From Planctomycetota bacterium (GTDB lineage Bacteria > Planctomycetota > Planctomycetia > Gemmatales > Gemmataceae), in assembly GCA_021807595.1 (NCBI GenBank), contig JAKBCS010000012.1, positions 1-58,185 on the forward strand: a stretch of 58,185 bases of DNA. The letters run 5' to 3'. Below are positions 10,766 to 57,830 of this stretch, one piece after another. How positions within the stretch are numbered: the first letter of the stretch is position 1; every line of letters starts with the position of its first letter. The notes below the pieces were generated by a model. The model worked only from the letters and a program-made list of their open reading frames with translations. It was not told the DNA's origin and ran no database searches. Made by a program: the position numbers and the translations under genes.

Positions 10766-11737
10766 TCAGGCACTTTTGCGCAGCGACTCTCGCGCGCGGG
10801 GCGCGGGACGAAGGCGTTCCAGCCGTCGAGGACGCGCCGGGCGGTCGAGCAGTGCGTCGATTTCTTGCAAGCGCGGCAACAATCCGCGCCCATTGGCGAT
10901 CTGAATGGCCAATCCCGGCCGTGCGTTTGCCTCCAGCAGCATCGGGCCAGAGTCTTCATCGACGACAATATCGACGCCGAGATACCCCAAGCCCACCGCG
11001 CGCGCCACCCGCCGCGAAAGCTCGAGGATCTCTCGCCAAAAGGGAACCTGCATATCGACGACCAGCCGCCCCGTATCGGGATGCCGTTCGATGAAGCGAT
11101 TGCGCTGCACGGCATGGTGGGTGATGCCCGTTGCCAAATCGACGCCCGCTCCGATGCCGCCTTGATGCAGATTGGCCCGCGCATTGGAGGCTTTCGTCGG
11201 CAAACGCAGCATGGCCATCGCGGGTTCATTGCGATAGAGGATCACCCGCACGTCCGGGATGCCCTTATAGGTAATCGCCTCGAACGCGGGGTGCAGATGG
11301 ATGCGCCGCTGCACGATGGCCGTGTCCGGCTGTCCGCCCAAGGAATACATTCCGGAGAGAATATCGGATAAATGCTGGCGCAGCGCATCCATGCCGACGC
11401 GCTCGCCGTTGTGCCGTCGGTACGCGCCCCCCTCGCGTCCAACGAGAACCAGAATGCCTCGTCCCGCCGAGCCGCGGTTGGGTTTGACGACGAATTCGGA
11501 ATGCGTGCCCAGCAACTCCGGCAATCGCCGCAGCATCGAATACGACGACACCTCCCGGTACACTTCGGGAGTCGGCACGCCGATGCGGCGGCAGAGCCGC
11601 GCCATGCGCAACTTGTCGTCGACGAGGGGAAAGCGCGAACGCGGGTTGTGGTCGAGGATGCAGGCGGCATTGCGATGATTCATCCCCAGAATACCCAGTT
11701 CGCGCAATCGACGCGCGGCCTTGAACAACCAAAACAT
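10766..11737 (-). CDS. Alpha-L-glutamate ligase-like ATP-grasp protein
   Basis: A 323-residue ATP-grasp enzyme that looks like the RimK-related alpha-L-glutamate-ligase-like group: MNHRNACILD-like opening, FVVKPNRGSAGRGILV in the ATP lid, LRLPTKASNARANLHQGGIGAGVDLATG, and the C-terminal LEANARPGLAIQIAN metal/ATP segment. Such enzymes would ligate an amino acid to a carboxylate acceptor. The ATG at 11737 is preferred because a GGAGG lies eight bases upstream; the ATG at 11752 overlaps that site. In other bacteria members often sit beside an inactive-transglutaminase membrane protein, which is absent here. Confidence 0.87.
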   Translation of the reverse strand: MFWLFKAARRLRELGILGMNHRNAACILDHNPRSRFPLVDDKLRMARLCRRIGVPTPEVYREVSSYSMLRRLPELLGTHSEFVVKPNRGSAGRGILVLVGREGGAYRRHNGERVGMDALRQHLSDILSGMYSLGGQPDTAIVQRRIHLHPAFEAITYKGIPDVRVILYRNEPAMAMLRLPTKASNARANLHQGGIGAGVDLATGITHHAVQRNRFIERHPDTGRLVVDMQVPFWREILELSRRVARAVGLGYLGVDIVVDEDSGPMLLEANARPGLAIQIANGRGLLPRLQEIDALLDRPARPRRLERLRPAPRARESLRKSA

Positions 11738-11779
11738 ACCGTGGACCTCCAAGAATAGCGCGGGCGTCGTTTCCGTTTG

Positions 11780-12706
11780 TCAGCGCGGCGTCGAAGGGGT
11801 GGACGGGGGAACGGCGCGAGCGTTGATCGGCAGTTCGAGGCGATCGAGGTGCTGCTTGAATGCCTCGTTGAGATTCGGAACCAACACGGTCAATCGCTGC
11901 GCCAGTGGGCTGGGATTGTTCTTCGAGCGCAATTCTTGCAGATACGCCAATAACACGGCTCGCGTTTCGGGATTCGCTTGCATCATCCAATGCGTCCACA
12001 GCCAGGCTTCTCGATATTCGGCAGATTTCATATCCCGAACATCTTTCATACGCTCCAGACGGTCGAGATCCGGCTGGCAGGCGTTGCCGAGATCGCGGCG
12101 GAGCGTTTCGACGTGCGAGGCGTTGATGCAATGTTCCGAAGGCGGCAGTTCGAAGTATTCCGCCAACCCTTCGTCGAGCCACAACGGCACGTCGCGGATG
12201 ACGCTGTGCAACAGAGCGTGTGTCAATTCGTGGCGCAAATCTTGTTGGATCCGATCTCCCCAATAGGTGTAGACCAACAGATCGTCCGAACCGCCGAACG
12301 GTTTCGGCTTTTGCACGAAGAAGGCGCGGCGCGGTGGCAAATCCGGATAGGTGGCGCGCATGAACTCTTCGTAGCGCTCTTTGTTCTCGAACAGATAAAC
12401 CCGCACGATGGAGTGCGTGGGCGGCAGATGCAAATCGCCGTAAACGCGGTCGCGCAGCCTGGCCAACTCTTGAAACAGCGGTTTGTTGCGGTCGATTTCA
12501 AAATCCGAGAGAAACACATACGGCGCGATGCGGAAGGAATAGCGGCTCGGCGGCGGCAGCGAACCGTGCGCGTCGGCGAGCGCTTTGTCGTTCTTATCGC
12601 GCGAGAGCAGGCGCGAGCCGTAAGAATTGCAACCGAGCGAAGTTACCAAAAGCAGAACAAGCGGTGCCAAAATTGCTCGTTTCCAGCCACCAGCGTTGCG
12701 AATCAT
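11780..12706 (-). CDS. DUF1570 peptidase-like lipoprotein
   Basis: A 308-residue exported lipoprotein: positively charged start, hydrophobic helix and lipobox SLGC with C26. The catalytic-looking part carries HELTH (H159, E160, H163) followed by PLWLDEGLAEYF with E179 as the likely third zinc ligand, the gluzincin-like arrangement of DUF1570/MA-type domains that are common in planctomycetes. It is therefore probably a zinc metalloprotease anchored to a membrane, with unknown substrate. GGAG precedes the ATG. It is 42 bp upstream of the ATP-grasp gene on the same strand. Confidence 0.85.
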   Translation of the reverse strand: MIRNAGGWKRAILAPLVLLLVTSLGCNSYGSRLLSRDKNDKALADAHGSLPPPSRYSFRIAPYVFLSDFEIDRNKPLFQELARLRDRVYGDLHLPPTHSIVRVYLFENKERYEEFMRATYPDLPPRRAFFVQKPKPFGGSDDLLVYTYWGDRIQQDLRHELTHALLHSVIRDVPLWLDEGLAEYFELPPSEHCINASHVETLRRDLGNACQPDLDRLERMKDVRDMKSAEYREAWLWTHWMMQANPETRAVLLAYLQELRSKNNPSPLAQRLTVLVPNLNEAFKQHLDRLELPINARAVPPSTPSTPR

Positions 12707-12835: not shown

Positions 12836-14530
12836 TTAACCCAGAGTCCGTCCGTTGCGCAGATTCCGTTGGACTTTGCGCGCGGTTGCCTCGGCGATCC
12901 GTCTCCACCAAAGTTTCCATCCGGCACGACCGCGCAAACCCCAGCGCAGATAGACGCGCAGAAAGCGCAAACGGTCGCTGCGCGTCACGCCCGGATGGTT
13001 CAGAAAACTGGCATTCAGTCGAGCCAGGTTTTGCGCGCGCCGCTCGCGCCGAAGTTTGCCCGGGCGGCCCGCGCCCACAAGGTCGATGAGATGGAGCGAG
13101 ACATCGTTTTCGCGGTCGATAGTAGATGCGCCGGAGACTAGCAGGTTGGCCGCCTTCAAATCGCGGTGCGAGAGACGGCGCTGATGCAAGGTAGCGAGGA
13201 GATGCGCGGTTTGGTCGAGAAGGCGGCGCAGGGAGGATCGGCATTCTGCGGGGGGCAGGGTGCGGAGACTATCCACGAACGCCCGTAAATCCATCGCGTC
13301 GGAAACTTTCTCGGTCAGCAGATACCCCTCGCGCGGCAGACCGAAGCGATGGCGATGCCAGACGGCCAAGGGGCGCGGCGTCGGCAGACAGCGCAAGCGC
13401 AGCGCATGACCCATGACGTAGGACCGCAGAGCCGGTGTCGGACGGAACAAGGCCGCCCACGGATCGCTCCAGCGCGTGACGGCGAATCGCTTGTAGACGA
13501 CACGGCGGGGGCCATGCGGCGTGGACAGGTCGAACTCGACGACGGCGGAACTGGGCGACCTTTTCAGGATCGAGACGTCGGGGCGCTGAAATGGCTCATC
13601 GGGAGCAGCCGCCAGTGCGGCCAGCGCCTCGCCGAAGACATCCGCCGCTACATGACCCGACACCTCCCCGGATTGAATGGAACGAAAGTGGCGATTGCGT
13701 TGAACACTTCGACGATCCAGTTTGTGCCACAATCGCAGATTGGAGCGCAAAGTCCCGCGCTCCAGTTGCTCGATTGCGTCCGATGGAGGAGATGTCAGCG
13801 ACTCGTAGAAGCGCCAGAAGCGGAGTCGATCGGTGAGCTGGGATCGCAACAAAAACCAGCGATTAAGCAAAATAAGATTGGCCCTCCGAGCCGGCCACGC
13901 CAACGGCGCTCCGATGCGAACGGCGTGCAGATCGACGAGGAACAACTCGACGCGGTCGTCGGCGTCGAGGCGCAGGAGAAGGTTGCCGGGATGCAAGTCG
14001 TGATGGGCGACGCCGGCATCGTGCATCTGGGCGAGCAGCCGGGCCAACGCTGCGGCAAGACGTTGGCGCAAGCGCGCTTGACGCCGCGACGGCCACTGTG
14101 GCCATGTGATTTCGAGAAACGAATTGAGGGGTCGTGTCTCCGGCAGTGCCCGCGTGAGAAGATAGCTATCGCGCGCCGAAGTGCCTCGGCACGGTTCGCC
14201 GACCGCCAATGCCTCGAACGTCGGAATGCCGCGCGCCGCCACCGCACGCGCGTGTCGGTATTCGACCCGCGCTTTGCTCGGCCTTATCCATTCGCGGAGT
14301 TTGGCCCGATAATCGGCCAGTCGATTGTGTTTGAAATAGAAGTCGATCTCCGGCAAAACGACGTGATAGACGGTGCGATGGGGTCCGTGCTTGACGATGT
14401 GAGCTTGCCCCGTCGCCAGCCACTCGTCCAGGCGCGGGCCGTCCGGCCCAAAGAGAAATGCCAAGCCCGGCTCGATTCGCCAGCGAACGCCGCCGCGTGC
14501 CAAGACGATCTTCTCCGCCACCGCGTCCAT
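12836..14530 (-). CDS. Fusion of two WaaP/InaA-type lipopolysaccharide kinase domains
   Basis: A 564-residue protein containing two complete kinase-like domains of the LPS-core kinase superfamily. Domain 1 (about 1-250) has K67 (FYFKHN), the loop HHDLHPGN (D178, N183) and the metal aspartate D200 (LVDLHA). Domain 2 (about 310-540) has K347 (VVYKRF), SHRDLKAAN (D457, N462) and D483 (LIDLVG). Both keep the residues needed for phosphotransfer, so both may be active on sugars of a lipid-linked saccharide. The ATG at 14530 lies five bases after the stop of the GT4 gene; an upstream in-frame ATG at 14581 would overlap that gene. The fusion is unusual for the family. Confidence 0.88.
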   Translation of the reverse strand: MDAVAEKIVLARGGVRWRIEPGLAFLFGPDGPRLDEWLATGQAHIVKHGPHRTVYHVVLPEIDFYFKHNRLADYRAKLREWIRPSKARVEYRHARAVAARGIPTFEALAVGEPCRGTSARDSYLLTRALPETRPLNSFLEITWPQWPSRRQARLRQRLAAALARLLAQMHDAGVAHHDLHPGNLLLRLDADDRVELFLVDLHAVRIGAPLAWPARRANLILLNRWFLLRSQLTDRLRFWRFYESLTSPPSDAIEQLERGTLRSNLRLWHKLDRRSVQRNRHFRSIQSGEVSGHVAADVFGEALAALAAAPDEPFQRPDVSILKRSPSSAVVEFDLSTPHGPRRVVYKRFAVTRWSDPWAALFRPTPALRSYVMGHALRLRCLPTPRPLAVWHRHRFGLPREGYLLTEKVSDAMDLRAFVDSLRTLPPAECRSSLRRLLDQTAHLLATLHQRRLSHRDLKAANLLVSGASTIDRENDVSLHLIDLVGAGRPGKLRRERRAQNLARLNASFLNHPGVTRSDRLRFLRVYLRWGLRGRAGWKLWWRRIAEATARKVQRNLRNGRTLG

Positions 14531-14535
14531 GCTCG

Positions 14536-15543
14536 CTAAGCCGCAAGCGGCTCCCTCAATCGATCCAAGATTCGCACCCATTTTGCCGCGCCCGCCCCCA
14601 CACTATACCGCTCCTGTACCAGTTGCCGACCGGCCTCTCCCATGCGATGCCGCAATTCCACATCGCCCGCCAGACGGCGTATCGCCTCAATCCATCTCTC
14701 TGGAGTCTGTGCGAGAAACCCCGTCTCGCCGTGCCGCACCATCTCCCATTGCACCCCAACGGGGTTGGCGACGACGGGCAGTCCGGCGGCAAGATATTGC
14801 AACACTTTTAAGCCGCATTTGCCTCGGCTCCACGCATCGTCGGGCAGCCAACTGATGCCGATGTCGGCCGCGGCGATCTCCTGGGACTCGGTCGCCTGCA
14901 TCCACGGAACGGGAACAATGGGAAGATCGTGCAATGTCAAAAAGCGATCGCAGACCAGTTTCAATCGCGTCCCCGGCACGTCTCGACCGACGGCTTCCAA
15001 CCACGGTGCGATGGCTTGCAGGCCGCGCAGCGTACTCGCCGATCCGACCCAGACGAGATCGATTCCCGACCGTGAGGATGCCTTTTCGATCGGCCGATAG
15101 AACTGGGGATCGACACAGGTTGGAATGACTTGGATGCTCCGGGCGCTGGTCCAGCGTGCGGCCTGTTCGGCGAGGAAGGTGTTGCCGGCGATCACCGCAT
15201 CGGCGCAGCGAACCATGCCGACAAAGCGATGCAGCCGCCTCCGGTCGTGCAATCCTTTTGCCGCGTAGGAATCCCGCAAGAACACGGCATCGTCGAAATC
15301 GAAGAGAAGTCGGCGAACCGACCGGCGCAACAATTGTCGCTGCCATCCCACCAACAATCGACGCTGTACGATGACGTTTTCGCCGCGCAGATTTTGAAAC
15401 AGCGAGGCTCTCTTCCACCAAGAGGAAGGTAGTGGCAGCAATTCCAGCGCATGCCCCGCTCGTTCCAGAATCGGACGAAAGGCCGCCAAGCGATAGCGAC
15501 AACAGACATGCTCGGTATTGTCTACTAAGCCGATCCACTTCAT
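14536..15543 (-). CDS. Glycosyltransferase (GT4-like, GT-B fold)
   Basis: A 335-residue glycosyltransferase. The C-terminal Rossmann half shows DLVWVGSASTLRGL, ADIGISWLPDDAWSRGKCGLK and VLQYLAAGLPVVANPVGV, the family-4 donor-binding pattern, with the E/R residues of the nucleotide-sugar site. The N-terminal acceptor half begins KWIGLVDNTEHVCCRYRL. The ATG at 15543 has GGAGA upstream. It is tightly linked (5 bp) to the double kinase gene, so it very likely acts in the same surface-saccharide pathway. Donor and acceptor are unknown. Confidence 0.9.
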   Translation of the reverse strand: MKWIGLVDNTEHVCCRYRLAAFRPILERAGHALELLPLPSSWWKRASLFQNLRGENVIVQRRLLVGWQRQLLRRSVRRLLFDFDDAVFLRDSYAAKGLHDRRRLHRFVGMVRCADAVIAGNTFLAEQAARWTSARSIQVIPTCVDPQFYRPIEKASSRSGIDLVWVGSASTLRGLQAIAPWLEAVGRDVPGTRLKLVCDRFLTLHDLPIVPVPWMQATESQEIAAADIGISWLPDDAWSRGKCGLKVLQYLAAGLPVVANPVGVQWEMVRHGETGFLAQTPERWIEAIRRLAGDVELRHRMGEAGRQLVQERYSVGAGAAKWVRILDRLREPLAA

Positions 15544-15562
15544 CGCGTTGTCTCCGGCCACG

Positions 15563-16090: not shown

Positions 16091-16579
16091 TCAGCGCCGG
16101 CGATCGGACATGGCTCGGCGTATTTCCTTCTGGGCGTCGGCCTTTTTCGCCGCCTGGCGCTTGTCGTGCAGCTGTTTGCCGCGCGCCACGGCCAACTCGA
16201 CCTTGGCCCGCCCGCCCTTGAAGTACATCCTCAACGGTACCAGAGTAAACCCTCGCTGCGACGCTTTGCCTGCAAACTTTTCGATCTCGCGGCGATGCAG
16301 CAACAGCTTGCGCGGACGTTTGGGCTTGTGGTTCATGCGATTGCCCATGCTGTATTCGGGAATATCGCTGCCGATCAACCACAATTCACCGTCGTCGAGC
16401 TTGGCGTAGGCGTCTTCCAAACCGCCCGCGCCTTCGCGCAAACTCTTGACCTCGGTACCGGTTAGCACCAGGCCGCACTCCAGCGTGTCCTCGACGGCGT
16501 ATTCGTGAAACGCTCGCCGATTGCGGCAAATGATTTGAATGCCTTCGTCCTGGTCTTTTTTGCTCGGTTTGCGCGCCAT
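16091..16579 (-). CDS. smpB: SsrA-binding protein
   Basis: RNA-binding partner of tmRNA in ribosome rescue. The 162-residue protein contains RRAFHEYAVEDTLECGLVLTGTEVKSLR, the DAYAKLDDGELWL segment, RPRKLLLHRREIEKF and a basic C-terminal tail that inserts into the ribosome. AGGAGA precedes the ATG at 16579; an in-frame start 72 bases upstream is not needed. It is the first gene of a possible transcript smpB, lipoprotein, GT4, double kinase. No tmRNA gene was found in the window. Confidence 0.96.
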   Translation of the reverse strand: MARKPSKKDQDEGIQIICRNRRAFHEYAVEDTLECGLVLTGTEVKSLREGAGGLEDAYAKLDDGELWLIGSDIPEYSMGNRMNHKPKRPRKLLLHRREIEKFAGKASQRGFTLVPLRMYFKGGRAKVELAVARGKQLHDKRQAAKKADAQKEIRRAMSDRRR

Positions 16580-16735
16580 GGTCTTTCTCCTACCTATCAT
16601 GTTAACAGAAACGCGAGGGAGAGAAAATATCGGTCGAATCCGCATTGACACGCTAACAGTTTAGGGAGTATCACCCCATTGTTTGCGGTGCGGCAAGGCA
16701 CGGAAAACCGCGAACGAGTAGGAGACTCCGACGAC

Positions 16736-18121: not shown

Positions 18122-19009
18122 ATGGCGAGTAGGACGGGAACGCTCTGGCAACGACTTTTTCTCGGCGTGCGTCGACTGCGCCATCAACCGCATTGGCCGG
18201 AGATCGCGGGGCCGGATTGGGCCGAATCCATCATGCAAGCCGCCGTCACCGACCGCTTTCACTCCAAACAAGGACGCACCATCGCCCGCTGGACTTTGGA
18301 GAATCAGGATAAACGATTGGTCGTTTATTTGAAGCGACATTATCGCTTACCGCGACTCCACGGCTGGATGGCGCTGCTGTGGCCGGAGGGCAATTGGTCG
18401 CCGGCCATGCAGGAATGGGAGCATCTCGAACAAGCCCGCGCCGTCGGATTGCCGGTTCCCGTGGCGGCGGCCGGCGGCGAGTTTATTGGGCCTTGGGGAC
18501 AGTTTCGCAGTTTCCTCGCCGTCGAGGAACTGACCGGAATGCTGGCCCTGCACGAGGCCATTCCCCTCGCCGCTCAACGTCTCGATCCGCATACGTTCCG
18601 GCGCTGGAAACGCGGCCTCATTCGCCAGATGGTCGTCCTGACGCGCAATCTCCACGATCGCCGCTGGTTCCACAAAGATCTCTACCTGTGTCACTTCTAC
18701 ATCGACGAAGAAGACACTCTCCGACTGCCGGAGGATTGGAGCGAGCGCGTTCGGATCATCGACTTACACCGCCTGGCGCGCCATCGTTGGACTTGGCCGT
18801 GGTGGAGAATAAAAGACCTCGCTCAGCTCTTGTATTCGTCGGATGTGAAGGGAGTCGAGGGCCGCGATCGGCTGTGGTTTTGGCGAATCTATTTCGGTTC
18901 GGTTCGGCGGCATCGCAGCATCCGCTTGTTGTGGCGAATGATCCGCCTTCAAGCGTGGAATTATCAACGTCGCCACGATCGTCGCCTGAGAAGACGAAAT
19001 GCGCTCTAA
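18122..19009 (+). CDS. Lipopolysaccharide kinase, WaaP/RfaP-like
   Basis: A 295-residue kinase-fold protein of the WaaP (LPS core heptose kinase) group. K71 (VVYLKRHY), the catalytic loop HKDLYLCHF (D186) and the metal-binding IIDLHR (D214) are intact; KDLAQLLYSS follows as in known WaaP proteins. It is predicted to phosphorylate a sugar of a lipid-linked core on the cytoplasmic face. It pairs with GT87 upstream and converges on a GT9 heptosyltransferase gene, supporting an LPS-like pathway. Confidence 0.9.
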   Translation: MASRTGTLWQRLFLGVRRLRHQPHWPEIAGPDWAESIMQAAVTDRFHSKQGRTIARWTLENQDKRLVVYLKRHYRLPRLHGWMALLWPEGNWSPAMQEWEHLEQARAVGLPVPVAAAGGEFIGPWGQFRSFLAVEELTGMLALHEAIPLAAQRLDPHTFRRWKRGLIRQMVVLTRNLHDRRWFHKDLYLCHFYIDEEDTLRLPEDWSERVRIIDLHRLARHRWTWPWWRIKDLAQLLYSSDVKGVEGRDRLWFWRIYFGSVRRHRSIRLLWRMIRLQAWNYQRRHDRRLRRRNAL

Positions 19010-19086: not shown

Positions 19087-20223
19087 CTAAGCGCTGATGC
19101 GCCGCTCCGTCGCCAAAACGCGCTCGATTCCATCGATCACCATGCTCGGAGTCACTTCGTTCATGCAAGCGTGTTGGCGCGGACAATCGCTTAAGCGCCG
19201 GAGATAGCAGGGCGCACATTCCTTCTGAACGCGCACCACGGCCTCCGGACGGCGATAAGGGCCGATCCAAATCTCGTCCGTCGGACCGAACACGCCGACC
19301 ACCGGACGATGGAGCGCTACGGTCAAGTGCATCGAACCGGAGTCGTTGGTGACGCACAATTCCGCACGGCGAATGAGGGCGGCCAATTCCGACAGCGAGG
19401 TTTGGCCGCACAAATCGAGGATGCCGGGAGCGCGCTGGGCCACAGCGCGGCAGCGTTCTCGCTCGCTCGCCGAACCGGCCAATACCACGGCTCGACCCGT
19501 GCCGCGCAGATAGCGCGCCACGGCCGCGAACCCCTCGACGTGCCAATGTTTCGTCGGCCAAATCGTGCCGGGAACAACCACCGCGAACGATTGGCTGCGC
19601 ACCCCAAATCGGCTCAGTAGCGCCTCGACGCGCTCCGTCGAGCGCGCCGGGATGGGTACTTGAAACTCCGCCGGTTCGTCGTCGAGACCGAGAATCGGTG
19701 CGAGCGATAGATAGCGATCTACCGCATGAACGTCGGAACGCGGCAGCGGAATCCAATGCGTGTACGATAACCACGCTCCTTCGCGCGTCCCCGTCCAACC
19801 GTGTCGATAGGCGTCCTCCGCGAGCTTGCGATCCTCCGCCGAACGTGGACCGGCATGAGGGCGGTCGAAACCCAGGCGTACCGGCGCATGAGTCGCCATT
19901 GTCAACACGGCAGAGCGAAATTGTCCGTGAAGATCGAGAACCAGATCGTAGCGCGTCCGCCACAGCTCGGCGAGCATATGTCCGATGCCGCGCAACCAGC
20001 CGCGCCAATCCCGCGCCAACGCGCCGCGATCGAAGAGGATGACGTTGGAAAGTGCGGGATGGTGGCCGATCAGTTCGGCAATCGGTGGGGTCAGCACCCA
20101 GTCGATCCGCGCCTCCGGATAGCGCCGGCGCAGCTTGGCCAACACCGGCAGCGTGTGAATCACATCGCCCACCGCCGAGGGCTTAATTATCAGGATACGT
20201 CGGAAGAATCGAGTTTTAAGCAT
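19087..20223 (-). CDS. Glycosyltransferase family 9 (heptosyltransferase-like)
   Basis: A 378-residue GT-B protein. ILIIKPSAVGDVIHTLPVL at the N-terminus, DLVLDLHGQFRSA, VVVPGTIWPTKHW in the linker, and LCVTNDSGSMHLTVAL plus VVGVFGPTDEIWIGPY at the nucleotide-sugar site are characteristic of WaaC/WaaF-type ADP-heptose transferases. Whether the donor is ADP-heptose is inference. The ATG at 20223 is the only good start; the open frame runs much further upstream but into the neighbouring gene. Convergent with WaaP. Confidence 0.92.
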   Translation of the reverse strand: MLKTRFFRRILIIKPSAVGDVIHTLPVLAKLRRRYPEARIDWVLTPPIAELIGHHPALSNVILFDRGALARDWRGWLRGIGHMLAELWRTRYDLVLDLHGQFRSAVLTMATHAPVRLGFDRPHAGPRSAEDRKLAEDAYRHGWTGTREGAWLSYTHWIPLPRSDVHAVDRYLSLAPILGLDDEPAEFQVPIPARSTERVEALLSRFGVRSQSFAVVVPGTIWPTKHWHVEGFAAVARYLRGTGRAVVLAGSASERERCRAVAQRAPGILDLCGQTSLSELAALIRRAELCVTNDSGSMHLTVALHRPVVGVFGPTDEIWIGPYRRPEAVVRVQKECAPCYLRRLSDCPRQHACMNEVTPSMVIDGIERVLATERRISA

Positions 20224-25571: not shown

Positions 25572-28160
25572 TTATCGAAGGAGCGACACGGGAACGATTC
25601 CCACAGTCATAATCGTGGAAATAGCCGTCTGCAAATCCTGGGCTACCGTTGCATCACTTCCTGTAACAACCTTATAAGACGGCAACGCAGTAGCGGACGA
25701 GGACTGGGTGTTGCCTATGTACTGTATCTGTTGCAAGGTTTGCAGCGCGCCTGCCGCAAGCGGGCTAGAAGGTTCAAAAACGGGTCCGAAAGCGATGGTG
25801 TGAATGAGAACCGGTTTGGTTGCCGTCGCGTATCCGGGCGGGTTGGCTGTGGTTGGCGAAACGATCTGCTGGCAGAGAGAGTTAATCTGAGACAATACAG
25901 ATGACGCGTTATTGCCGACGTTGCTCACTCCCGTGGGAAACTCGCTGGAGGAAGGGTTGGAGCTGTTATACCGAATGTTAAAATACGAATTATAAGCGCC
26001 GTTATTGGCAAAATTAGCGCTGGCCGTATAGTTGGGCAAACCATCGGTCTCCAGGATAATGACTTTCTGCGCCCCCTTTCGGCCCAGACCGCCGGCGTCG
26101 CCTGGCAGCGCGGGCGAAGGGTTGTACGTTTGCAGAGAGGTATTGCTGCTGAACTGATTGTACGCCAACATCAATGGATAGGCGAAGCAGGTTCCACCCA
26201 TGGCGCGGGGAACTTCAATATTATTATTGTAGTCGTAGGGGTTGATGGTCGAGCCGGGGTTATCCAGTGTGTAGGGCGGAAACCACTGAGCGTTTATCAT
26301 ACGCGTGTAGTTCTGTCCCAAGGGGGAACGAACGCGATTGAAACGGCCGCCGTACCATGTGTCGTTGACGGCGTCGAGCGGAGCGCTGTAAAAAATCAAC
26401 GATACCCAGTCGTTGGGATGATTGCTTTGTATGGTTTGAATGGCGGCTTGCATGCCGAGTTTGGCGGCGTAACAAGGTGCCTCGTGACAGGTGCCGGGCC
26501 ACCAAGCATATTTAAGATAACCGAGATAATCTCCCGTCAGGCTCCAGCCGTTGTAGTTCCCCAGAAAATCAATCATCGTCATCGGTCCAAACCAAAAGTG
26601 CATCATCGGCCTGGGCGGATTGTCGGTGTAGCTCATGTATTGCCCGGTGGTCGGCTTTTTGCTGACCTGCTTGTTGGGATTGCCCGAATTCGTCCAAGAG
26701 AAATCGTCGCCGTAACCCGTCCATTTGGTGAAGTTCGCGGGATAGTCGTAGGTCGAGTCCCAGTATTGATTGGCTCCGATCTGAATGTTTCCCAGAACCC
26801 AGTCGATATAATCCTTCCAGAAGCGCTCGTTCAGATCGGTAAGGGGATACTGCGTCCAAAAGCGTTGATTCAACGTGGTATCCGTGCCGCTGGGAATAGC
26901 GGTGTAATACTGAATATAACCGGCCGTTAGTTGTGGCGGAAACGAATTGGGACCGGTGTTTTGCAGCCAATTAAGAATGGCTTGATAATTGACGTAGTAA
27001 TTGACCGTGCCGTTGTCGATGGGCGGTGTCCAATTGCCCTGGGAGTCCCACAGTACAGTATTGTCGTCAACCGGTGTGGTCTGATCGTTCTTGAAGAAGA
27101 ACTTTTGCCGCCAATCGTTCGCGGATCGTGGATCGGGCGGCCAGATAAAAAAAGTTTTCCCCCAATAGTTCGGACCTTGCGAATAGCCGTTATAGGGAGC
27201 ATTAGTGTAGTAGGTGTACCCATTACTCTCGAAGTTTGCATTTCGGCCCGTTCCGCCCGTAATATCTTTTACCGAAAGAGCGTAAGAGTTACCGGAGTTC
27301 CCGTTGGCTTTAAGAGGAACATCGCCCCCTGGAGTGACGGCGTAAGAACTCGATGCCGGGGTAAAGGCTGGAACGGGCGAGGCACCCACCTGTTGATAGA
27401 AATCGCCAACAATCGCCGGACGATTAAAGTCGGTCGCATTGGACTGGCTTATGTTGGCAGCATCGAAAGTGTACCCGCCGATTACATTGGTAGACGAGGT
27501 CTGCTGCAAAGCGATACTGTTGGACGAATAGTGTCCGAAGGTTGGAATCGTACTTTCAGGATTATTCGGTGTGTCGATCGGTCCAAAAAAGCCATCCAAC
27601 GATTTCGACAAACCCATTAAGCTGGAGAATCGCATCGAACCGGAAAAATCTTGGATAATGGCCATGTCGATGGGGCGGGAGATTGCCGTTGCCGTCGCTT
27701 GCGTGTTGAAGGCACTAATACCGAACACAGAAGCAAACGCGGTCTGCCCCGCATAAGATACCGTACTGTTCACCAGCGTCCAATTATCGCTGGCATTGTT
27801 CACCGATCCGTTATCGAGGGGATAAGCCAAGAATTGTCCTTGCGTGGTGTCATAATAGTATTTTCCGACGATGATACCGACCTGGCTCGATTGAATCGTT
27901 TGAGTCAGCACCGTGTTGGAAGTGGCGGCGGCGGTCGCCGCCGGCGTCACGGCCGCGTAGTTGTTATTGTTGCTCTGATTTCCGGTCAGCATGCGAACGC
28001 CCGTCAATGCGGCGCAGTCCGCGGCGTTCTGACACTGATTTTTGGCGATGGCGATTAAACCGATATCTATGGCCAGCGCTACCATTCCCAAGAGGCCTAC
28101 CAAGGCGATGGCCAACAACGGAATCACCGCCGCGTTGCGATGAGATCGACACAATTTCAT
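25572..28160 (-). CDS. TadG-like pseudopilin-associated protein with vWA domain
   Basis: An 862-residue exported protein. The N-terminus AAVIPLLAIALVGLLGMVALAIDIGLIAIAKNQ is the TadE/G-type membrane helix followed by the NAADCAALTG segment. A von Willebrand A domain begins at PIDMAIIQDFSGSM (MIDAS D171, S173, S175) and resumes near VIILETDGLPNY, with an insertion of about 450 residues rich in Asn, Tyr, Trp and Pro between them. It is the last gene of a TadE-TadE-TadG run. GAGGG precedes the ATG. Confidence 0.82.
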   Translation of the reverse strand: MKLCRSHRNAAVIPLLAIALVGLLGMVALAIDIGLIAIAKNQCQNAADCAALTGVRMLTGNQSNNNNYAAVTPAATAAATSNTVLTQTIQSSQVGIIVGKYYYDTTQGQFLAYPLDNGSVNNASDNWTLVNSTVSYAGQTAFASVFGISAFNTQATATAISRPIDMAIIQDFSGSMRFSSLMGLSKSLDGFFGPIDTPNNPESTIPTFGHYSSNSIALQQTSSTNVIGGYTFDAANISQSNATDFNRPAIVGDFYQQVGASPVPAFTPASSSYAVTPGGDVPLKANGNSGNSYALSVKDITGGTGRNANFESNGYTYYTNAPYNGYSQGPNYWGKTFFIWPPDPRSANDWRQKFFFKNDQTTPVDDNTVLWDSQGNWTPPIDNGTVNYYVNYQAILNWLQNTGPNSFPPQLTAGYIQYYTAIPSGTDTTLNQRFWTQYPLTDLNERFWKDYIDWVLGNIQIGANQYWDSTYDYPANFTKWTGYGDDFSWTNSGNPNKQVSKKPTTGQYMSYTDNPPRPMMHFWFGPMTMIDFLGNYNGWSLTGDYLGYLKYAWWPGTCHEAPCYAAKLGMQAAIQTIQSNHPNDWVSLIFYSAPLDAVNDTWYGGRFNRVRSPLGQNYTRMINAQWFPPYTLDNPGSTINPYDYNNNIEVPRAMGGTCFAYPLMLAYNQFSSNTSLQTYNPSPALPGDAGGLGRKGAQKVIILETDGLPNYTASANFANNGAYNSYFNIRYNSSNPSSSEFPTGVSNVGNNASSVLSQINSLCQQIVSPTTANPPGYATATKPVLIHTIAFGPVFEPSSPLAAGALQTLQQIQYIGNTQSSSATALPSYKVVTGSDATVAQDLQTAISTIMTVGIVPVSLLR

Positions 28161-51265: not shown

Positions 51266-54223
51266 CTAGCTGGTAAGTATGTCGGAGAACAACAACGGAG
51301 TAAAGTTAATGAGACTCAGCGATGGATCGCTGAAGAAGAGCGATATTTTCAGCGATTTTCCTGGGGCCAATTGACTCAACAAGGATGAGGGGATATGAAC
51401 GTAAGGCCCTTCGGTCGTCTTCGTAATCGTCAACGTGTAAGTCGTGGTGCCGACGACGATGGTTGCCTTGCTTAGCGTAACCCCGGCGGTGAGGTTTTCG
51501 ATGAGCAGGTCGAGAGACCCCTGGATGGCGCTGCCGCTGGTATTGGTGATGGTGAGCGTGCCGCCGAATAGTTTGGTGCCGCGATTGTAGAGGAAACCGG
51601 TACTGCTCACGCTAACCTGGCTCGTAACGTTATTGGCCGGGTTGAGCGTGACCGTTGCCTCGGCCGCAGTGACGCCGTTCTGGGATAGCACCACCGTCGC
51701 CGTGTACGGCTGCGTCGCCGCATACGTATGGTCGCCGAAGACTTGAATCTGATCGCCGGAGATCTTGATCGTCACCGGCGAACTGCTGAAAGCCGAATCG
51801 TCGGCGGATTGATCGCCCCAGTTGACGAAGGCGGAGTAATCTTTAGACGATGTCGCGGTCGTCGGTTGCGTGAATTGGGCCAGAAGGATAGAGACACCCT
51901 GCAGGTCGGAAATGGTCTTGGCCGCCGGAGGCGCGATAATCTCGGCCGGTGGCAGAGCGACCACCGGAGTCGCGTTAAACTGGTTGGGGGACGTGCTTAC
52001 GGGCGTCGTACCGGGAAACGGGCTGGCAACTCCGGTAAACCCAGACGTTCCGTCCGCGCCGTTATTCCCAAAATTGCCGGATGGATTGCCCGCACCTGCA
52101 ATTCCTCCGCTGCCTGCATACCCTTTACTTCCCTCGGTGCCACCGGGACCGGCACCAAGACCTTGGCCGCTCGTCACGGTGTTGCTGACGATGGAGGAAT
52201 CGGTACTCAGGGTGACGGTTCCGGAAGCGAGGTATAGCCCTCCTCCCGTGGCTAGGCCGCCGTTGCCGCCATTACCTCCACTGCCTCCATTCCCGCCGTT
52301 GCCGCCATTCCCGCCGTTGCCACCGGTTCCACCCTTTCCGCTTGGGCCTTGAGGGCCGAAACCTGTTCCGGAGTGGTTGTCGTTGGTGCTGAACCATGAA
52401 CCGTGACCTCCGGCACCACCCGAACCACCGGCTCCTCCAAGTCCTCCGCGCCCGCCGCCGCCGCCGCCGCCGCCCTTTCCTCCCACTACTCCCCCGCCGC
52501 CCCAACCTCCCGAAGCGGCATTCGATGAGATGGTCGAAGAGGTCAATCCCAAAGAACCTCCCGTTTGATAGATGCCGGCACCCAAGGCATTTCCCCCGTT
52601 GCCGCCGTTGCCGCCGTTGCCGCCGTTGCCGCCGTTGCCGCCATTGCCGCCCGAACCGCCCTTTCCACCATTTCCACCGACACCTCCCTGAAGCTCGGCA
52701 AAGTGTCCTTTGTCGTCACCATCCGTATCGCCATCATTAAAGGGAGCTGTCCCAGCGGCTACGCCTTTCGCACCCGCGCTTCCCGTTCCCCCCACACCTC
52801 CGGAACCACCCGCGCCGCCTTTCCCTCCGACGCCACCCCATCCCCCGGAACCCCCGACCGCCCGGTTGCTCTTCACATTCGTCTGAAAGAGAGTAACGGT
52901 AGCTTTATTCTGGTATATTCCACCGCCTGTGGCGTTGCCTCCATTGCCTCCATTGCCTCCGTTGCCTCCATTCCCTCCATTCCCTCCGTTAAATCCCACG
53001 CCGTTGACTACCTTGAGTTCGGACTTGCCCTTGCCTCCGTTGCCCCCATTCCCTCCAGACATTCCACTGGCTCCGTTACCCCCTATCGCACTGTTTCCAG
53101 ACACAGTGGCGGTGGCGATCAGCATTTGCCCGCCACTGATATAGATGCCGCCTCCCGCCGCATTCCCTCCGTTACCCGAAGGATTGGCTTTATGACCGTT
53201 GCCGCCGTTTCCACCGTCGCCGCCCAACTTTGCCCCCGACGACCCATTCTTGACCGTGCCCAAGGAGGTGTACCCGCCGCGCCCTCCCCTTCCTGCCCAT
53301 GCGTAATTGTTCTGAATCGTCGCGCCTTCGATAACGACCTTCGCTTGGTTAAGATAGAGTCCACCGCCCTGCGCTTTGCCTCCCGTTCCTCCTTTGATAG
53401 TTCCGGTGGCGGAAGCGAATCCCGAAGCGCCGGCCCCTCCAGAGGCAGAGTTGGATTCAATTTTGCCGTTTAGCAAAATGAGCTGTCCACCGGACATAGC
53501 GACGCCGCCTCCTTGAGCAGGGCTTCCCGCAGGAACGCTCGAAGCGCTCACGGATGGCTTGGTTCCGCCGCTTGCGTAGTTGTTCGAGACAATGCTGTTG
53601 GATAGGGTTATCGTACCTTTGCTCGAATAGATTCCACCACCCGCCGCCGCTCCAAACGGGTTATTCGCGGCATTATCCACGACCGTAGCGGACCTTAATG
53701 TCAAATTGCCGCCACTATTAAAGATCGCTCCTCCCTCGACCGTACCGGCAAACGAGGATGACTGATTCCCAAGCTCGAATCCTTCGATTTTCACATTCTG
53801 CATCGTTAGATTGGCCGTTGGGGCCAAATCCAACAGACGGGCGTTCCGCGCGCCGACGAACACGGGATCGAGTACCGCGCCGTTGCCGTTAATGGTCAGA
53901 TTGCTCGACGTAATAACCGGAAGCGCGTTGCCGCCATCGGAAGTTCCGTTGGTAAAATTGTTTATCGACGAGAATACATACAGCCCCTTGGAGGCCAACA
54001 CGATGGTATCGGCTTTTCCGTCGCTGTTGGCCGTGTTAACGGCGCTAATCAACCCCGCAACGTCGCCATTGGCGATGTTGAAAACCGTGGGCACGGTGCG
54101 GTCTTCCAATCGCTCCAACTGGAGCGGAACCGAGCGCCGTCGCTTGGCCGCGCGCTTCGCTCCGCGAGATGATCCATCGCTTGCTCCGAACCAACGCTGC
54201 CGCAGAGACTTCAACCACGTCAT
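51266..54223 (-). CDS. Giant secreted LEPR-XLL protein with beta-helix and Gly-rich repeats
   Basis: A 985-residue protein. Residues 36-45 (LERLEDRTVP) are the LEPR-XLL-type N-terminal element of planctomycete surface proteins. A right-handed beta-helix part follows (FNIANGDVAGLISAVNTAN, LTINGNGAVL, VEGGAIFNSGGNL). From about residue 240 to 700 it is interrupted by GGNGG and GGKGG stretches resembling PE_PGRS proteins. The C-terminus has a PKD-like domain (VNWGDQ, FGDHTYA) and a final Fn3-like domain (LYNRGTKLFGGTLTITNTSG). AGGAG precedes the ATG at 54223. Confidence 0.87.
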   Translation of the reverse strand: MTWLKSLRQRWFGASDGSSRGAKRAAKRRRSVPLQLERLEDRTVPTVFNIANGDVAGLISAVNTANSDGKADTIVLASKGLYVFSSINNFTNGTSDGGNALPVITSSNLTINGNGAVLDPVFVGARNARLLDLAPTANLTMQNVKIEGFELGNQSSSFAGTVEGGAIFNSGGNLTLRSATVVDNAANNPFGAAAGGGIYSSKGTITLSNSIVSNNYASGGTKPSVSASSVPAGSPAQGGGVAMSGGQLILLNGKIESNSASGGAGASGFASATGTIKGGTGGKAQGGGLYLNQAKVVIEGATIQNNYAWAGRGGRGGYTSLGTVKNGSSGAKLGGDGGNGGNGHKANPSGNGGNAAGGGIYISGGQMLIATATVSGNSAIGGNGASGMSGGNGGNGGKGKSELKVVNGVGFNGGNGGNGGNGGNGGNGGNATGGGIYQNKATVTLFQTNVKSNRAVGGSGGWGGVGGKGGAGGSGGVGGTGSAGAKGVAAGTAPFNDGDTDGDDKGHFAELQGGVGGNGGKGGSGGNGGNGGNGGNGGNGGNGGNALGAGIYQTGGSLGLTSSTISSNAASGGWGGGGVVGGKGGGGGGGGRGGLGGAGGSGGAGGHGSWFSTNDNHSGTGFGPQGPSGKGGTGGNGGNGGNGGNGGSGGNGGNGGLATGGGLYLASGTVTLSTDSSIVSNTVTSGQGLGAGPGGTEGSKGYAGSGGIAGAGNPSGNFGNNGADGTSGFTGVASPFPGTTPVSTSPNQFNATPVVALPPAEIIAPPAAKTISDLQGVSILLAQFTQPTTATSSKDYSAFVNWGDQSADDSAFSSSPVTIKISGDQIQVFGDHTYAATQPYTATVVLSQNGVTAAEATVTLNPANNVTSQVSVSSTGFLYNRGTKLFGGTLTITNTSGSAIQGSLDLLIENLTAGVTLSKATIVVGTTTYTLTITKTTEGPYVHIPSSLLSQLAPGKSLKISLFFSDPSLSLINFTPLLFSDILTS
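52260..53060 (-). repeat. Gly-rich 9-bp-unit repeat tracts inside the LEPR-XLL gene
   Basis: Several runs of CCGTTGCCG-type and CCTCCATTG-type 9-bp units (GGN GG on the coding strand) at 52260-52330, 52585-52660 and 52930-53060. They encode Gly-Gly-Asn triplets. Such tracts can change length by slippage. Confidence 0.7.
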
Positions 54224-54533
54224 TGGGGAGAACTCCTGGAGGGAACTCGGGTCGCTCACGAAAATATCAAGGGTGCAAAACACACAAAACCTGTCCGCGA
54301 TGAATCTTGTGGACTACCCCGGTTTTCGACGCTATGATATTCGTGCCGAGCGCCGAGAAAGCTCCCACAAGAGGAAAGCCGTCGCCTTTCGATAAAATCT
54401 GTTTATTCGCGCCCTCTGCTCTAACTTTCCTCATTTCTCGCCGCGAAATCAATTAGCCCAAACAGGTCAGTGTACTAATGTTCCCAATCGGACGGAGAGG
54501 AGATTGTTCCGAGGTGGGAGAAAGGGTGATGCA
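54224..54533. promoter_or_regulatory. Divergent intergenic region, LEPR-XLL gene / LuxR-type regulator
   Basis: 310 bases between two genes read in opposite directions. It probably holds both promoters and any operator for the regulator, but I identify no clear promoter box or palindrome. Confidence 0.4.
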
Positions 54534-55450: not shown

Positions 55451-57649
55451 TCAGGCCGACGGCGGAGTGGGTGCCAGCCGATCGAAGAACGAACCGAGAA
55501 ATGGCTCGTAGTGTTTCCAGCGCGCCACAGAGCGGGAATAGAGCGGCTGCCGCACCTGTGTGACGCTGGCGGTTCGTACGGGCCGTTGCACTTCGTGAAA
55601 AGCTAAGCAAGCCGGTTCCCAGTCCAGGCCGCACCAAGCGAGCATGCGCCGAGCCACACCCTCCAGGTCGGCCACCTGCTCCTCGTAATCGACTTCCAAG
55701 ACTGGCACGGGTAATACACGACGCCAATGATCCATAATGCGCAGATGCTCCTCGAAGCGGCTGCGGATGTGATCGAGATCGTTGGCCCAGCGGATGTGGC
55801 GGAAATGTGTCATCCAACACGACACGGCCACGTCGCGGAGATCGCGGCGGCAGTAAATGAACTTGGCCTTGGGGAACAGAAGAGAGAGCAGGCCCAGATA
55901 CATATAATTATCGGGCATTTTATCGACGATGCGCGCGGCCGCGGCATCTAGCGAGCGCAATCGTTCCAGGTGTACTCGCCCCAGGCGATGCAAATCGCTT
56001 GCACTCAGCTGGACCGATTTCTGCAAAGCATCCTCCTCGGTGGCGGAGTTTTCGTCGATTGCCAAAAACGATTTTCGGGCAAAAGTCAGTTCTCCCGCGC
56101 CGAATACCTGCGAGTGGCGAGCCAAGATCTGCTCCGTGAGCGTTGTGCCGGATCGAGGGAGACCGACGATGAACAGAGGAACTTCGGTATCGAATCCAGC
56201 GCCGTAAAGTCGGGAGAACAATTCGGGTGAGAAGGCGGATATTAATCCGTCGATGAAGCGATGATGGTTGTCGGGATCGTAAGCCTGGTTCGCCTTTTGT
56301 TGCCACTGCGATTTGAGCGCGTTGCCGAGTTGGAGTTGCTCGGCCGCCTCTCGATAGTTCTTGCGCGCGTCGCACACCTGAGCGAGGCCGAAATGCAAGT
56401 GCATGCGTTGGTGATCGGTCAGGTTGGGATCGGCCAACAATTGACGCAGTGCCGACTCGTCCTCGGCAGTCATTTTTCCGCGGAGAAGTACCGCGAGTTG
56501 GGCGTGGGCCGCGACGCTTTCGGGCCGTCTCTGGATCACGTCGCGGTATATTTTCTCGGCTGAAGCGAACTCGCCCAGTTCGACGAGGAGCGATGCATAA
56601 TTGCTTTGCGCGATGGGAAAGTCCGAGCGGAGGCGCAGAGCGGATTCGAAATACTCTCGCGCTGGCGCATACGCGCCTTGCTCGTGCCGCACCCATCCCA
56701 GTCCGTTATAGGCTTCGGCGAACTCCGGATCGAGCCGCAACGCTTGCTGATATTCCTCGGCGGCTCCGTCGTATTCCTCTTGTTCTTCAAAAGCGCTGCC
56801 CAGGAAACAGTGTAGCCGGGCGGAGTTTGGATCGAGCTCCAGGGCTTGGCGATACCAGGTGACGGCCTCTTCCAAACTGCCGTCTTCCTGCAAGACTTGG
56901 CCCATGTTTCCGTAGGTCAGCGCCAAATCGGGGGTCAATCGCAAGGCCTCGGCATAACTGGCGCGCGCTTCAACCAACTGCCCTTTTCGACGCAAAACAT
57001 TGCCCAGATTGTTGTGCGCCTCGGCAGTGTTGGGCTGCAAGCGCACGGCTTCGCGGCAGTGCAGCAAGGCAGCCTCCAAGTCGTTTCTTTCCAGAAGTAG
57101 CTGCCCCAGATTGCTGTGCGCCTCGCCCAAGTCGGGATGCTGCTGCAAGGCTAGACGAAACAAAGCGATGGCTCGGTCTTCGTCGCCGCCCAGACGAAAG
57201 GCGTTGCCGAGATTGTTGTGCGCCAGTGCGAAATGGGGGTTCAGGCGAACGGCCGATTCAAACTGCGCGCGCGCCTCTTCGATCTTGTTCTGTTGCAGGT
57301 AGATTAAACCGAGATTGTTCGCCGCTTCGGCGCAGGCGGGCTGGAGACGCAGAGCCGTCCGACAACAGCCGATGGCTCGATCCAGTTGTCCCAAAGCTCG
57401 ATACGCCTCGGCCAGGTTAGCGTGGAAGACGGCGACGCTCGGCCTCACGGCAATGGCTCGACCGATCAAATCCACTGCACGCGCGGAATCGCCTTCTTGA
57501 TGCGAAACGACGCCCAATAAATGCAGGGCGTCTGGGTGCATTGGTTCGTCGGCAAGTATCCGCCGATAGATCTCCGCCGCTTCCGGCAATCGTCCGATCT
57601 GATGCAACGATAGGGCGGTATTCAGATCGTCTCCTCGTTGAGGCGTCAT
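55451..57649 (-). CDS. TPR-repeat sulfotransferase
   Basis: A 732-residue protein. About eleven or twelve TPR units run from residue 5 to 390 (e.g. AEAANNLGLIYLQQNKIEEA, AEAHNNLGNVLRRKGQLVEA). The C-terminal 240 residues form a sulfotransferase domain with the 5'-PAPS loop FIVGLPRSGTTLTEQILARH (498-503 PRSGTT) and the 3'-phosphate-binding FIYCRRDLRDVAVSCW. It should transfer sulfate from PAPS to a protein tyrosine or a saccharide. The ATG at 57649 has GGAG upstream. Converges with the regulator gene. Confidence 0.9.
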   Translation of the reverse strand: MTPQRGDDLNTALSLHQIGRLPEAAEIYRRILADEPMHPDALHLLGVVSHQEGDSARAVDLIGRAIAVRPSVAVFHANLAEAYRALGQLDRAIGCCRTALRLQPACAEAANNLGLIYLQQNKIEEARAQFESAVRLNPHFALAHNNLGNAFRLGGDEDRAIALFRLALQQHPDLGEAHSNLGQLLLERNDLEAALLHCREAVRLQPNTAEAHNNLGNVLRRKGQLVEARASYAEALRLTPDLALTYGNMGQVLQEDGSLEEAVTWYRQALELDPNSARLHCFLGSAFEEQEEYDGAAEEYQQALRLDPEFAEAYNGLGWVRHEQGAYAPAREYFESALRLRSDFPIAQSNYASLLVELGEFASAEKIYRDVIQRRPESVAAHAQLAVLLRGKMTAEDESALRQLLADPNLTDHQRMHLHFGLAQVCDARKNYREAAEQLQLGNALKSQWQQKANQAYDPDNHHRFIDGLISAFSPELFSRLYGAGFDTEVPLFIVGLPRSGTTLTEQILARHSQVFGAGELTFARKSFLAIDENSATEEDALQKSVQLSASDLHRLGRVHLERLRSLDAAAARIVDKMPDNYMYLGLLSLLFPKAKFIYCRRDLRDVAVSCWMTHFRHIRWANDLDHIRSRFEEHLRIMDHWRRVLPVPVLEVDYEEQVADLEGVARRMLAWCGLDWEPACLAFHEVQRPVRTASVTQVRQPLYSRSVARWKHYEPFLGSFFDRLAPTPPSA

Positions 57650-57830
57650 AACAGGCTCCGATTTATACTCTTCCCTCCGTGAGTTATAGGAGGCGTTCAA
57701 GAACCCGTCTCGCACCGCCGCGCGCAGCCATGCGCTGCTCCGGTGCCACGACTTCGCGCCCGGTGACGGCAACCGCCCGACGAACGCCCTTGCCGGCGAT
57801 ACCCCAGCGCGGTCAGGTCCAATGATATTC

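Follow-up and report, generated by a model that had tools for sequence, protein, structure and literature searches.

A tandem Kdo/WaaP-type kinase of the Gemmataceae as a candidate two-site kinase of LPS inner-core assembly

The closest described systems are kinases of the LPS core. WaaP (RfaP), the heptose(I) kinase of P. aeruginosa and E. coli (PDB 6dfl), is a single-domain enzyme whose helix-C Glu pairs with the ATP lysine (K51-E78); the substitutions K51A, D163A and D188N gave no growth, E78A retained growth but shifted the sensitivity to EDTA 128-fold, and the substrate residues Y165, H168 and R191 are needed for growth of P. aeruginosa (PMC6147952). WaaY, the heptose(II) kinase of E. coli, is also a single domain (232 aa), very divergent and unstable in its tree position, and the Kdo kinase KdkA is single-domain as well. 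P. aeruginosa PA5006, of at least 493 aa, is named a putative LPS kinase (PMC8707732). Nothing specific on tandem LPS kinases was found among open-licence papers, though an earlier description is possible. Here we describe a planctomycete protein in which two kinase domains of this type lie in one chain, and we propose, with a probability of roughly 0.55, that it acts in the cytoplasm as a two-site sugar kinase during LPS inner-core assembly.

Family and fold of the two halves

The window (the whole stretch of Gemmataceae DNA that was analysed, 58,185 nt) carries the gene at 12836-14530, where the original prediction had placed it. ORF reading puts it on the minus strand, from an ATG at 14530 to a stop codon at 12838-12836, with 564 aa encoded; the plus-strand reading of the same interval is interrupted by stops. 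Translation from an alternative ATG in frame at 14581 would lengthen the protein by 17 aa. The PF06293 (Kdo/WaaP) profile matched the whole protein in two stretches, and each half also matched alone. The N-terminal domain (residues ~40-285; 13676-14413, minus strand) scored 65.2 bits (E 7.2e-18) and the C-terminal domain (residues ~286-564; 12839-13675, minus strand) 60.5 bits (E 2e-16). Both scores exceed the gathering cut-off of 21.3 bits by much more than chance could account for. Aligned with each other, the halves show 34% identity over 201 aa (E 8e-17).

Structure prediction agreed with the profile search. The AlphaFold2 model of the whole protein, made with 18 aligned relatives, had a pLDDT of 89.7 and a pTM of 0.85, and its best Foldseek match in the PDB was WaaP (6dfl, E 4e-13). 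When modelled alone, the N-half reached a pLDDT of 90.2 and a pTM of 0.84 and was aligned to 6dfl by VIA-align with a Z of 18.2 (rmsd 4.3, 235 aligned), and residues 290-557 of the C-half were aligned to it with a Z of 20.4 (rmsd 3.7, 239 aligned). In both comparisons 6dfl was tied for the top with the Bud32/PRPK group. Both halves are predicted to be full kinase folds, and neither lacks a modelled ATP pocket, so the central claim of two LPS-kinase-type domains in one chain is upheld by profile and model alike.

RfaP was the top NCBIfam model for either half (68.9 bits for the N-half and 61.2 for the C-half) and KdkA the runner-up (29.1 and 42.3 bits), but these scores are below the equivalog cut-offs of 170 and 142 bits, respectively. 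Neither half was closest to Ser/Thr kinases. The Pkinase profile PF00069 gave 15.1 bits for the N-half and ~24 (23.8-24.2) for the C-half, below its per-domain gathering cut-off of 31.7, and 37.5 over the whole protein was reached only as a sum. PF06293 outscored PF00069 by at least 36 bits in both halves, and a genome scan with PF00069 returned roughly 75 Ser/Thr kinases, with scores of up to 205 bits, among which the double kinase was last. A Ser/Thr kinase identity was rejected on these profile scores.

The double kinase shares with WaaP the fold, the PF06293 family, the ATP lysine, the catalytic and metal Asp and a glycosyltransferase context. However, the positions of the WaaP substrate residues Y165, H168 and R191 are occupied by H, N and A in the N-half and by K, N and G in the C-half. 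Since these residues are absent from both halves, the double kinase is not a doubled heptose(I) kinase, and that candidate was rejected. The genome has WaaP-type kinases besides it: a separate single-domain kinase that keeps Y/H/R is encoded at 18122-19009 on the plus strand (PF06293 9e-20, RfaP 1.1e-25, signature KEHKDYHDHR), and the WaaP-type residues are also kept in domains 1 and 3 of a three-domain kinase encoded elsewhere in the same genome.

Asymmetry of the two kinase domains

All of the catalytic residues quoted in the original prediction are present in the translation. The core that in PKA numbering is K72/D166/N171/D184 corresponds to K67 (codon 14332-14330), D178 (13999-13997), N183 (13984-13982) and D200 (13933-13931) in the N-half, and to K347 (13492-13490), D457 (13162-13160), N462 (13147-13145) and D483 (13084-13082) in the C-half, all on the minus strand. 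The lysine and both aspartates of each half align with WaaP K51, D163 and D188, and an Asn stands at the position of WaaP H168. The catalytic loop is DxHxxN in the N-half, as in WaaY, and HRDLKxxN in the C-half. Conservation was counted among 77 aligned two-domain relatives that are 21-92% identical (about 71 distinct, as six occur twice in two collections). In the N-half, K67 and D200 were kept in all 77, N183 in 76 and D178 in 74 (three have Glu); in the C-half, K347 and N462 were kept in all 77 and D457 and D483 in 76. One relative (L102, genome G168) was the only one of the 77 in which the C-half had lost both the catalytic and the metal Asp. Pairwise dN/dS was 0.11-0.25 for both halves, which are under purifying selection.

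The two sites differ at the helix-C Glu (E91 in PKA, E78 in WaaP). The N-half has E90 there (14263-14261), and Glu is found in 77/77 N-halves. The C-half has S370 (13423-13421), and 72 of the 77 relatives have Ser (44) or Ala (28); Ser is also found in 17/19 C-halves of the proteobacterial double kinases described below. This state is common to the C-halves of both phyla, and marks the C-half as a distinct subfamily, not a decayed copy. The idea of a dead second copy was unsupported, given the core residues kept in 76-77 of 77 relatives and the low dN/dS. The original claim that neither half is an obvious dead copy therefore survives as far as the phosphotransfer residues are concerned, which are intact in both, but it overlooked the asymmetry at S370. 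Without the helix-C Glu, full activity of the C-half is less certain than was stated, and its activity may be weak or regulatory.

This leads to an alternative in which, as in pairs of a kinase and a pseudokinase, only the N-half carries out committed phosphotransfer and the C-half is a partner that binds ATP or substrate and is regulatory or of low activity. It would account for the near-absence of the helix-C Glu from C-halves, and a precedent for pseudokinase partners in this group is a three-domain LPS kinase, also encoded by this genome, whose middle domain is clearly dead. That protein is encoded by one ORF on the minus strand of contig C176 (L009:3703-6606), adjoins genes for heptosyltransferase II, HldE and LpxK, and resembles the double kinase in its tandem PF06293 domains; it differs in its WaaP-signature domains and its dead middle domain and is not an ortholog. 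In the four proteins examined, the lysine, the Glu and the metal Asp are all gone from this middle domain. The C-half of the double kinase, by contrast, has kept its core residues and is under purifying selection as strong as that on the N-half. Moreover, some kinase-like families function despite altered core residues, the helix-C Glu position included (PMC1821047). We therefore consider an N-half-only kinase unlikely, and a two-site kinase remains the preferred reading.

In many genomes of the family the three-domain kinase is represented by a two-domain ORF and a separate WaaP ORF. Between HldE and LpxK on contig C176 lies a 329-aa ORF (L009:9015-10004) with sub-threshold Pfam matches only (deoxyhypusine synthase-like).

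Locus, distribution and relatives

The gene order in the window is smpB-GT4-kinase-DUF1570, with all four genes on the minus strand. The GT4 glycosyltransferase directly upstream (14536-15561; PF00534 4.6e-11) ends in a TAG at 14538-14536, 5 nt ahead of the kinase ATG, which agrees with the translational adjacency noted originally. A DUF1570 protein (11780-12706; PF07607) is encoded directly downstream, and the order GT4-double kinase-DUF1570 is kept in 10 named loci (L070-L079). SmpB (16091-16651, named by reading the sequence) is often upstream of the GT4, as in the window (L070-L072 and L076-L078); it marks the locus and probably does not belong to the pathway. At two other named loci (L068 and L069) no match to a GT4 of the window type was found near the double kinase. 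The WaaP-type kinase mentioned above and a heptosyltransferase-like GT9 (19087-20220, minus strand; PF01075 3.3e-48; TIGR02195 147.6 bits, above the cut-off of 134.6) are only 4-6 kb away. A GT87 is also found at the locus, and a sugar-transfer-associated ATP-grasp protein (10766-11752; PF14397 4.8e-81) lies near it. Elsewhere in the window, a TPR-repeat protein with a C-terminal sulfotransferase domain (PF13469) is encoded at 55451-57772, and the ORFs at 51266-54283 (1005 aa) and 25572-28160 (862 aa) had no Pfam match at 1e-6.

Double kinases usually adjoin glycosyltransferases in other organisms as well. In Ca. Scalindua (L081) the gene lies directly behind one for heptosyltransferase II (152.2 bits with TIGR02195, against a cut-off of 134.6) and shares an overlap with a GT2 gene, and in a member of the Brocadiia (L083) it is found among GT2 and GT4 genes. 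The statement that LPS-core kinases are normally single-domain was too strong, because the two-domain layout is general in the Gemmataceae, recurrent in Planctomycetota and present in a proteobacterial family. Orthologs were found in 4/4 genomes of the genus, the three others being 92, 73 and 73% identical, and 59/61 genomes of the Gemmataceae had a match, mostly of full length. Among 244 genomes of the phylum with at least 90% completeness, a profile search found at least 47 with a single frame spanning both halves (at least 376 of 558 profile columns). The double kinase is thus near-universal in its own family and patchy in the phylum. Named relatives come from Gemmataceae, Isosphaeraceae, Zavarzinella, Aquisphaera, Ca. 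Scalindua, a Brocadiia MAG and one MAG labelled Deltaproteobacteria; no plasmid-borne relatives were found at 1e-5.

The proteobacterial relatives (L085 and L128-L145) likewise combine two kinase domains, arranged as in the planctomycete protein, the first with Glu and DxHxxN and the second with Ser or Ala and DLKxxN. In a Methylophilaceae MAG (L085) the gene for a double kinase of 499 aa is third in a row of four, after those for WaaP and a WapP/Q-like kinase and before one for a WapO carbamoyltransferase-like protein (this last identified by eye), which matches P. aeruginosa PA5009-PA5005 (operon order from PMC8005017). PA5006 was linked to the double kinases by its size and operon position (PMC8707732, PMC8005017). 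Relatives were found in 31/232 genomes of the class to which L085 belongs, and in about 20 of these both halves were present. Their neighbours, WaaP, the WapP/Q-like kinase and the carbamoyltransferase-like gene, differ from those in the window: the PA5006-type operon holds WaaP and heptosyltransferases, whereas the double kinase of the window adjoins smpB, GT4 and DUF1570. The WapP/Q-like kinase of L085 (L085:6611-7456) has HRALH in place of HRD, its catalytic Asp being replaced by Ala. In two other proteobacterial ORFs (L140, 741 aa, and L145, 728 aa) a WaaP-like domain is fused ahead of a PA5006-type double kinase.

The phylogeny of both halves that had been called for was run on two sets of domains, 127 in one and 87 in the other. 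C-halves from the two phyla formed one group apart from the N-halves and WaaP (FastTree 0.95, SH-aLRT 97); in the FastTree tree E. coli WaaY also fell within this group. A recent tandem duplication in the window's own lineage was rejected on the basis of this grouping. The common clade of C-halves argues for one old fusion. However, PA5006-type N-halves grouped with only a few planctomycete N-halves, and since the grouping of the N-halves of the two phyla is weakly resolved, the same two subfamilies may instead have been fused on two occasions.

The neighbourhood raises another alternative, namely that the two sites phosphorylate a non-core saccharide, for example an exopolysaccharide or an undecaprenyl-linked glycan that the partner GT4 makes. 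In NCBIfam this GT4 is matched best by models of exopolysaccharide GT4 enzymes, though with scores far under their cut-offs, and the presence of the ATP-grasp protein and the GT87 would fit, as would the separation of the locus from the LPS genes clustered on contig C176. However, PF06293, to which both halves belong, is the family of the LPS kinases, the Scalindua gene adjoins heptosyltransferase II, and the arrangement of the proteobacterial relatives beside WaaP is that of a core-LPS operon (PMC8707732). A non-core acceptor thus appears distinctly unlikely. A role as a protein kinase, in which one or both halves act on Ser, Thr or Tyr of proteins, is suggested by the HRDLKxxN loop and weak Pkinase match (24.2 bits) of the C-half and by the in vitro tyrosine kinase activity of WaaP itself (PMC9138534), but is highly improbable in view of the PF06293 scores, the last place among the Pkinases of the genome and the constant glycosyltransferase neighbours.

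A proposed two-site kinase of the inner core

The preferred reading is a kinase of the LPS inner core with two working sites. The original prediction had named the acceptor in generic form, as a lipid-linked saccharide; the LPS inner core is more likely, because the genome carries WaaA, LpxC, LpxK, HldE and heptosyltransferases. WaaA is uninformative as a discriminating partner, being present in 238/244 genomes of the phylum. In Planctopirus limnophila almost all of the lipid A genes (lpxABCDKL) are essential (PMC10632474). Each half would be a complete Kdo/WaaP-fold phosphotransferase with its own ATP lysine (K67, K347), its own Asp for binding Mg (D200, D483) and its own Asp for activating the sugar hydroxyl (D178, D457). 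The most likely job would be to place phosphates on two different core-sugar hydroxyls, those of heptose II, Kdo or the sugar that the partner GT4 adds, with the two enzymes acting in concert, and heptose I would be left to the other, WaaP-type kinases that the genome encodes. Catalysis at both sites, the LPS core as acceptor and the identity of the sugars are what we infer from the comparisons above.

A wider reading, which we put forward only tentatively and regard as rather doubtful, is that of an ancient two-active-site LPS kinase family in Planctomycetota and Proteobacteria, Pseudomonas included. One chain would serve two inner-core positions, with a second site that works without the Lys-Glu ion pair and with the glycolipid possibly passed between the sites.

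Core phosphates hold the outer membrane together, yet the position that is phosphorylated has been assigned for only a few of the core kinases. The double kinase is most likely a largely unstudied variant of the LPS inner-core kinases that acts at two sites. A fused pair found across the phylum, together with a counterpart in the core operon of P. aeruginosa that is so far a putative LPS kinase, offers a direct route to assigning more of the core kinases, and the C-half lends itself to testing how kinase sites may work without the helix-C Glu.
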